The notes under the pieces: model-generated | The model's input: only the letters and a program-made list of their open reading frames with translations | Database searches by the model: none | Told to the model about the DNA's origin: nothing | NCBI RefSeq assembly: GCF_026616195.1 | Contig: NZ_JANHDH010000002.1 | Span: forward strand, 62,001-126,000 | Reading direction: 5' to 3' | Source of the DNA: Haloarchaeobius amylolyticus | GTDB lineage: Archaea; Halobacteriota; Halobacteria; Halobacteriales; Natrialbaceae | DNA length: 64,000 bases | Translations under genes and position numbers: made by a program | Shown: positions 59,708 through 61,810 of the stretch, piece by piece | Position numbering within the stretch: the first letter of the stretch is position 1 | Layout: each line of letters starts with the position of its first letter

Positions 59708-59739
59708 TCGTCAACCGACACGATTTTCCCGGTTGACGA
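59708..59739 (+). promoter_or_regulatory. BirA-type biotin operator before bioY
   Basis: TCGTCAACC (59708-59716), 14 bases, then GGTTGACGA (59731-59739) form a perfect 9-bp inverted repeat. Known BirA operators have the form TTGTAAACC-N14/15-GGTTTACAA, so both the spacing and the AACC/GGTT inner edges match. It ends 15 bases before the bioY ATG, and the A/T-rich spacer (GATTTT, 59722-59727) sits where a TATA box would be. A regulator bound here would block transcription of the biotin importer when biotin is plentiful. Confidence 0.72.
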
Positions 59740-59754
59740 GCCTCTGTATCCCGT

Positions 59755-60357
59755 ATGGCAGAACGAGAGGGACGATCGGAGTACGGGAACGTCGACCTCG
59801 TCGGCGACGAGACGGTCAAGCAGGTGGCGGTCGCGGCGGTGCTGGCGGCGCTGACCGCGGCACTGGCACAGGTATCGATTCCGCTGCCGGGGCTGCCGGC
59901 GCCCATCTCCTTCCAGCTGTTCGGCGTCTACTTCGCCGGGCTGTTACTGGGTGCGCGCTGGGGTGGCTTCTCGGTGGCGCTGTACCTGCTCGTGGGGGCC
60001 GCGGGCGCGCCGGTGTTCTCGAACGGGAGCGGTGGCCTCGGGGTGTTGCTCGGGCCGACCGGCGGCTACCTGTTCGGGTACCTGCTCGCGGCGGTGGTCA
60101 TCGGCCTCGTGGTGCACCGGGGGCTGGAGACGCGCTCGCTGACGCAGGTGCCGGTGTGGCTGCAGGCGGGCGCGCTGTTGCTCGGGCTGGCCATCATCTA
60201 CGCGCTGGGCGTGCCGTGGCTGGCGGAGACCACGTCGTACTCGCTGGAGAAGTCCATCCAGATCGGGATGGTCATCTTCGTGCCGGGTGACCTGCTGAAG
60301 ATCGCGGCGACCATCGGGGTCGTCCGGGCGGGGCTGTTCGACGCCGTCGCGGCATGA
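59755..60357 (+). CDS. bioY: Biotin-binding S component of ECF transporter
   Basis: A 200-residue integral membrane protein that captures biotin. Six or so helices are visible after a short charged N-terminus. The family motif begins QVAVAAVLAALTAALAQVSIPLPGLPAPISFQLFGVYFAGLLLGARWG, and the later GPTGGYLFGYLLAAVVIGLVVHRGLE and PGDLLKIAATIGVVRAGLFDAV are typical of BioY. It works with the BioM and BioN subunits downstream. The start is ATG 59755. Its stop overlaps the bioM start (ATGA). Confidence 0.94.
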   Translation: MAEREGRSEYGNVDLVGDETVKQVAVAAVLAALTAALAQVSIPLPGLPAPISFQLFGVYFAGLLLGARWGGFSVALYLLVGAAGAPVFSNGSGGLGVLLGPTGGYLFGYLLAAVVIGLVVHRGLETRSLTQVPVWLQAGALLLGLAIIYALGVPWLAETTSYSLEKSIQIGMVIFVPGDLLKIAATIGVVRAGLFDAVAA

Positions 60358-61055
60358 TACAGACGCGCGACCTGGTGCATCGCTTCGGCGACCACCGGGC
60401 GCTCGACGGTGTCTCGCTCTCGATTCCCGACGGCGAGTTCGTGCTCGTCGTGGGGCCGAACGGGAGCGGGAAGACGACGCTGGTGCGCCACTTCAACGGG
60501 CTGCTGGCGCCCGACGAGGGCGCGGTCGTGGTCGACGACACGCCGGTCGCCGAGGACCCGGTCGCCGCCCGCACGAGCGTCGGGATGGTGTTCCAGCACG
60601 CCCGCGACCAGCTGGTCGCGTCGACCGTCGGCGGGGACGTGGCCTTCGGCCCCGAGAACCTCGGGCTTGCCCGCGAGGAGATAGACCGGCGCGTGGCAGA
60701 ATCGCTCGACGCGGTCGGCATGACCGGCCGCGAGGACGAGCGCGTGGACGAACTCTCCGGTGGCGAGCAGTCCCGGGTGGCAATCGCGGGCGCGCTCGCG
60801 ATGGAGCCGAATCACCTCGTGCTGGACGAGCCCTTCGCCGGGCTGGACCAGCGTGCCCGCCGGTCGGTGCTCGACAGGCTCGACGCGCTCCACGCCGAGG
60901 GGACCAGCGTCGTCGTCGTCACGCACGACCTGCGGGACCTGTTCGAGCGCGCCGAGCGCGTGGTCGCGATGGCCGACGGGCGGGTGGTCGGAGACGGCAC
61001 CCCCGACGACGTCGCGGACGACCTCGCCGGGCTGGGTGTGGACGTGCCATGCTGA
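60354..61055 (+). CDS. bioM: ATPase subunit of the biotin ECF transporter
   Basis: A 233-residue ABC ATPase of the ECF A type (like CbiO). Walker A is GPNGSGKTT (residues 34-42), the signature is LSGGEQSRVA (about 134-143), Walker B is LVLDEPFAGLD (about 155-165), and the Q-loop is MVFQHARDQL. It powers uptake by BioY. It overlaps bioY by four bases (ATGA) and bioN by seven, so the three genes are translated together. A single ATPase here may act as a homodimer. Confidence 0.95.
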   Translation: MIQTRDLVHRFGDHRALDGVSLSIPDGEFVLVVGPNGSGKTTLVRHFNGLLAPDEGAVVVDDTPVAEDPVAARTSVGMVFQHARDQLVASTVGGDVAFGPENLGLAREEIDRRVAESLDAVGMTGREDERVDELSGGEQSRVAIAGALAMEPNHLVLDEPFAGLDQRARRSVLDRLDALHAEGTSVVVVTHDLRDLFERAERVVAMADGRVVGDGTPDDVADDLAGLGVDVPC

Positions 61056-61810
61056 CCTACGCGCCGGGCGAGTCGGTCGTCCACCGGCTCGACGCGCGCT
61101 CGAAACTGGCGTTCCAGCTGGGCTTCGCGGCGGCCGCGTTCGCGCACCCCGAGCCGGACTGGCTGGCCGGGCTGGCGGTCGTGGCGGCGCTGGGACTCGC
61201 GCTGGCGCGGCTCTCGCCGGTGCGGGTGTTCCGGGAGTACTGGTTCGTCTTCCTCCTGCTCCTGAGCAGCCCGCTGGTCGCGGCGGTGTCGCTCTCCGCG
61301 CCGTGGGTCGTGCCAGCGCGGGCGGTCGACCCGCTGCTGGCGGTCTCGCGCGTCGGGCTCATCCTGTTCGTGAGCGCGGTATACGTTAGGACGACGCCGG
61401 TCCGGGAGACGCGGGCGGCCATCCAGCGCCACGTCCCCGGGAAGACGGGACGGCTGCTCGGTGTCGGTGTGGCACTGACGCTCCGGTTCGTGCCGGTGCT
61501 GACGCGGGACCTCCGGTCGGTCAGAGATGCGATCCGGGCGCGGGGTGGGGAGAACAGGTCGGTGGTCGACCGCGGCCGGCGGCTCGGGACGGTCGGATTG
61601 TCGCGGGCGCTGGAGCGGGCAGACCGGCTGTCGGTGGCGCTCCGGGCGCGGTGTTTCTCGTGGAACCCGACACCGCCCGAGATGACGTTCTCGCGGGTCG
61701 ATTACGCCGTGCTGGCGGTGGGCGTCGGGCTCGGTATCGCGGGGCTGGTGCCGGTGGTAGCCGGGGTGGCCGGTGGCCTGGTACCGGTGGTTGTCGGCCT
61801 CGTCGGCTGA
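61049..61810 (+). CDS. bioN: Transmembrane coupling subunit of the biotin ECF transporter
   Basis: A 253-residue EcfT/BioN protein that links BioM to BioY. The N-terminal signature LTYAPGESVVHRLDARSKLAFQLGFAAAAF is followed by several membrane helices. The two coupling-helix X-R-X motifs are present (DAIRARGGENRS, about residues 152-163, and VALRARCFSW, about 193-202). The C-terminal tail has two more helices (AVLAVGVGLGIAGLVPVVAGVAGG). It converges with the serpin gene, one base between stop codons. Confidence 0.93.
   Translation: MLTYAPGESVVHRLDARSKLAFQLGFAAAAFAHPEPDWLAGLAVVAALGLALARLSPVRVFREYWFVFLLLLSSPLVAAVSLSAPWVVPARAVDPLLAVSRVGLILFVSAVYVRTTPVRETRAAIQRHVPGKTGRLLGVGVALTLRFVPVLTRDLRSVRDAIRARGGENRSVVDRGRRLGTVGLSRALERADRLSVALRARCFSWNPTPPEMTFSRVDYAVLAVGVGLGIAGLVPVVAGVAGGLVPVVVGLVG

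Follow-up and report, generated by a model that had tools for sequence, protein, structure and literature searches.

A predicted BirA-type operator at the bioYMN promoter of Haloarchaeobius amylolyticus with a second copy at the 5' end of bioB

The window, i.e. the whole stretch of 64,000 nucleotides of Haloarchaeobius amylolyticus DNA analysed here, encodes the three subunits of a biotin ECF transporter in the order bioY, bioM and bioN, and a palindrome lies directly 5' of bioY:

59708..59716, + strand: left half-site TCGTCAACC of the predicted BirA-type operator (exact sequence)
59717..59730, + strand: 14-nt spacer GACACGATTTTCCC with a TATA-like TTTT at 59724-59727, about 30 nt 5' of the ATG (read from the sequence)
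59731..59739, + strand: right half-site GGTTGACGA, the exact reverse complement of the left half
59755..60357, + strand: bioY, substrate-binding subunit of the biotin ECF transporter (Pfam BioY, E 1.8e-39)
60354..61055, + strand: bioM, ECF ATPase, overlapping the bioY stop codon (Pfam ABC_tran, E 1.3e-30; the bioY-bioM order is kept in relatives)
61049..61810, + strand: bioN, ECF transmembrane subunit, overlapping the bioM stop codon (Pfam CbiQ, E 1.6e-14)

Together the half-sites form a perfect 9-14-9 palindrome, TCGTCAACC-N14-GGTTGACGA, at 59708-59739, ending 15 nt 5' of the bioY ATG at 59755, and our sequence check found the coordinates and the description given in an earlier note on this DNA to be correct. 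It is the sole perfect 9-14-9 palindrome of the window. Perfect 9-bp inverted repeats with a spacer of 13-15 nt occur twice, i.e. the bioY palindrome and one other, and palindromicity alone is therefore weak evidence; as a perfect palindrome of such geometry is not improbable in 64 kb, the argument is built on the identity of the sequence, its position and its recurrence. Compared to the BirA signal consensus TTGTAAACC-N14/15-GGTTTACAA (Rodionov et al. 2002, as quoted in PMC545781), seven of the nine positions of each half-site agree and the spacing is N14, in line with the BirA-like spacing and inner AACC/GGTT that the earlier note had pointed out. Allowing up to three mismatches, 0.09 matches to the BirA-type motif are expected in the window and the match at bioY is exact; as a background, 600 stretches of 210 nt were drawn at random from the window, and their best match had at most two mismatches in 1/600 and at most three in 23/600. 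The presence of this specific motif at bioY is not due to chance.

The palindrome is conserved across the order. We searched 195 genomes with the pattern YCGTNAACC-N14-GGTTNACGR, allowing one mismatch and using the reversed pattern as control, and found the motif in 157 genomes compared to four for the control, which answers positively the question whether relatives carry it 5' of bioY; among the 30 motif loci listed, 28 lie 5' of bioY and one at bioB. Sampling by gene first, which avoids a bias towards the motif and used the distinct bioY loci in L089-L118 and the distinct bioB loci in L159-L188, revealed a site with at most three mismatches at 22/23 bioY and 29/29 bioB loci. The spacing is 14 nt in 105 of 113 bioY sites. 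Across these 105 sites half-site positions 3 and 6-9 (G, A, A, C, C) are near-invariant. In the haloarchaeal half-sites in general, position 2 is mostly C and position 5 is either A or C, the latter pairing as C-G in 40, A-T in 29 and A-G in 23 bioY sites, so that the C-G/A-T alternation is just partly symmetric. One genus (f14 g27) has a spacer of 13 nt in six bioY sites and also at bioB (L119-L122, L358, L359, L180), and this common shift points to one shared regulator; the region of its BirA connecting HTH and ligase domain shows no obvious indel. Two genomes of genus g36 in family f10 (G026, G038) as well as G008 and G127 encode an HTH-bearing BirA with no good site before bioY, G127 retaining the bioB site. 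Upstream of bioY in family f7 (L106, L113, L117, L132, L133) we observed TCGTAAACC or TCGTCAACC, about 14 nt and then a GGTAAACCA-like sequence, possibly being an altered or direct arrangement replacing the usual inverted half in this family (genus g20), in which the bioB site is ordinary.

At bioY the usual distance between site and start codon is 12-14 nt (75/113 sites). In the relatives, the spacers of the bioY sites contain 62% AT on average; a common reading is CGAAG-TTTTGAT, which is similar to the BRE (CGAAA) and TATA (TTWT) elements of haloarchaea (PMC4983044) and suggests that the half-sites flank the promoter core. In Hfx. volcanii 72% of the protein-coding transcripts are leaderless (PMC4983044). 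The bioYMN promoter is predicted to be leaderless or nearly so with the half-sites bracketing a TATA-like core. These comparative data fit the proposal that the palindrome overlies the likely TATA region.

Scanning the 4.6-Mb genome of the organism revealed four places with at most three mismatches, of which the two with at most one mismatch are bioY and bioB. The second site (G000 C1:1157088-1157119; L027:5089-5120) is located at the 5' end of bioB, which is identified by TIGR00433 (E 8.5e-102); bioF and a bioD-like gene lie downstream of it. The gene separating bioB from bioF (L027:6241-7323) encodes a 360-aa product with a Rossmann dehydrogenase-like start (AVLGTGGIGRRTLD), for which Pfam gave no match at E 0.001. 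At bioB the geometry differs from that at bioY: in 36/36 loci the site ends 11 nt past the first base of the start codon, and in 35/36 a TATA-like sequence is present directly 5' of the left half. The right half is made up of the final G of the GTG or ATG start together with codons 2-4. GTT is the second codon in 36/36 loci, while it accounts for only 55 of the 998 other valine codons (5.5%) of the same genes. Codon 3 is mostly TAC; three loci have GAC instead, which in families f14 and f17 parallels bioY half-sites reading GGTTGAC. We consider it probable that the right half-site of the operator is fixed within codons 2-4 of bioB, the final G of the start codon being its first base, with repressor binding rather than enzyme function dictating, at the biotin synthase N-terminus, the GTT codon and in some clades even the residue (Y to D where the half-sites are GGTTGACGA), and that the whole regulon is able to shift to the 13-nt spacing as in the one genus.

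The gene birA is solitary, at about 440 kb of C1 and away from both bioY and bioB. Its 313-aa product possesses the N-terminal HTH that the earlier note had made a test of its proposal (HTH_11 at 11-55, E 1.7e-10), followed in the same protein by the ligase domain (BPL_LplA_LipB at 81-206, E 3.2e-20) and BPL_C at 261-306, and it aligns, HTH region included, over the greater part of its length with the structures of the bifunctional repressors of S. aureus (6apw) and E. coli (1bia). Nine loci of one family spanning birA and its upstream region contain no consistent site for autoregulation. A one-mismatch site was found 63 nt upstream of a biotin-carboxylase gene 5' of birA in G152 (L300:4899-4930); because the relatives checked have no site at the corresponding position, we do not claim this gene as a member of the regulon. 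Several other extra sites with one mismatch (G114, G156, G166 and a single one in G191) fall within or close to genes lacking a recognised link to biotin and were taken as chance matches.

Presence of the site follows presence of the BirA HTH domain. Using a detection cut-off of E <= 1e-10 for the BirA-type HTH, sites occur in 157 of the 177 genomes with the domain and in 0/18 in which it is undetected (Fisher 3e-15, a value that overstates independence because the genomes are phylogenetically related). Twelve of the 18 genomes have neither BirA nor BioY and have thus lost both together, so that few of the losses are informative, and in one genome (G089) birA is truncated. Of the absence cases, G019 and G015 are the most informative, both having kept bioY and having no site: the BirA of G019 begins at the ligase domain and has no HTH, and that of G015 has a degenerate N-terminal domain. 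G002 and G016 have no HTH, no site and no bioY. In seven near-complete genomes (G003, G012, G039, G075, G109, G119, G143) BirA and BioY are undetectable, which suggests loss of the entire biotin system.

The motif extends beyond the order. A stricter pattern matched 31 of 246 genomes of the wider phylum compared to none for the control, and in families f27, f29 and f35, which we call methanogens from their phylum and gene content, the palindrome is flanked by bioY and by a birA that encodes an HTH (L325-L327, L329-L333, L335-L336), several of these loci having the identical half-sites TCGTCAACC...GGTTGACGA. A BioY search of the genome contigs returned mostly bacterial matches and was little used. 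As in the window, the palindrome of the methanogens is placed just 5' of bioY; in contrast, birA there adjoins bioY, whereas that of the window organism stands alone elsewhere on the chromosome. This linkage ties the motif to BirA. It also argues against the suggestion that the G/C change in the half-site represents a haloarchaeal version of the motif: the methanogens share the motif, and the C/G variant is present in published deltaproteobacterial BirA sites as well, including TTGTcAACC-N14-GGTTgACgA (PMC545781 Table 1), so a distinct haloarchaeal version was rejected.

Compared to the bioO type of operator of E. coli, the haloarchaeal sites have the inverted half-sites, the inner AACC/GGTT and the 14-nt spacing in common, and they likewise lie upstream of genes for biotin transport or synthesis in genomes encoding a BirA with an N-terminal winged HTH. 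They differ from the BirA consensus in reading mostly TCGT instead of TTGT and in having A or C at position 5, and from the bacterial operators in lying over archaeal TATA/BRE elements instead of -35/-10 elements, in the right half being placed inside codons 2-4 at bioB and in the 13-nt spacer of one genus. A 2002 study by Rodionov, Mironov and Gelfand (Genome Res 12:1507) reportedly claims in its title conservation in Eubacteria and Archaea. The predicted archaeal sites of 2002 resemble ours in combining an HTH-bearing archaeal BirA with a palindromic signal before biotin genes. According to the papers citing that work, BirA signals common to bacteria and archaea were predicted there (Rodionov et al., as cited in PMC3403918 and PMC545781), and HTH-bearing BirA proteins are documented in archaea (PMC3199775). 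Archaeal BirA operators had thus already been predicted in 2002; less familiar are the predicted operator within the bioB coding region and the shifted spacer. In our literature search, neither an experimental study on the BirA regulon of haloarchaea nor an experimental test of BirA as a repressor in an archaeon was found.

The sites at bioY and bioB, their conservation, the HTH domain of BirA, the co-absence of site and HTH and the linkage in the methanogens all support reading the palindrome as a BirA operator. Two competing explanations remain improbable. The site may be a biotin-responsive operator bound by another factor, such as a TetR, GntR or ArsR-like HTH protein, while BirA would serve as ligase only. 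Haloarchaea encode many HTH proteins, 88 HTH_11 matches, most of them weak, being present in the genome of the window organism, and bacteria are known to use biotin regulators other than BirA, i.e. BioR and BioQ (PMC5343134). However, no HTH gene was recognised adjoining bioY or bioB in this genome, and no dedicated GntR or TetR regulator linked to the bio genes, as typical for BioR and BioQ, was found. Furthermore, half-sites and spacing agree with the published BirA signal (PMC545781), the methanogen site is placed between birA and bioY, and the site is missing where the HTH is missing, leaving this explanation an unlikely one. Equally unlikely in our judgement is that BirA binds with an outcome other than simple repression, either activation or fine tuning together with another factor. 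The direction of regulation is drawn from the bacterial systems, and the position of the site differs, bracketing the TATA at bioY and lying downstream of it at bioB; yet either position would block preinitiation complex assembly or promoter escape, and neither looks like an upstream activator site.

An RNA hairpin in the 5' leader, i.e. a riboswitch or attenuator, would account for an inverted repeat close to a start codon, but we regard it as very improbable. As the TATA-like core lies within the spacer, most of the bioY site would stay outside the transcript; the majority of haloarchaeal transcripts have no leader, as the Hfx. volcanii figure given above illustrates; conservation covers the half-site sequence itself and not just its pairing; and Rfam gave no match for the leader up to E 1, on which the riboswitch reading was rejected. 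A chance palindrome or artefact, for which the second perfect inverted repeat of the window might speak, is refuted by conservation, the site recurring at specific genes through the order and the methanogens, and its probability is negligible.

We therefore consider it very likely that BirA, as a bifunctional biotin ligase/repressor, uses the bioY palindrome as operator for biotin-dependent repression of bioYMN, with a second copy at bioB. Bacterial BirA dimerises in its biotinyl-AMP-bound form and binds to both half-sites, and by analogy with it we infer binding, corepressor and direction of regulation in the haloarchaea. With plentiful biotin, BirA charged with biotinyl-AMP would dimerise and the two winged HTH domains of the dimer would bind the half-sites flanking the promoter core of bioY, occluding TBP/TFB from the TATA region and switching off uptake. 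If biotin is scarce or apo-carboxylase acceptor is abundant, BirA would pass on its biotin, the dimer would be lost and bioYMN would be transcribed. At bioB, BirA would cover the transcription start together with the start codon and thereby block the start region.

As a summary, the binding signal of the transcription factor BirA is recognisable in bacteria and archaea alike. One operator design would be used on the archaeal TATA/BRE promoter in two geometries, at bioY and at bioB, and the latter would be a clean case of a predicted DNA-binding site constraining codons. The compact two-gene and order-wide regulon, with its sharply placed sites in predicted leaderless promoters, should be directly testable in tractable haloarchaea.
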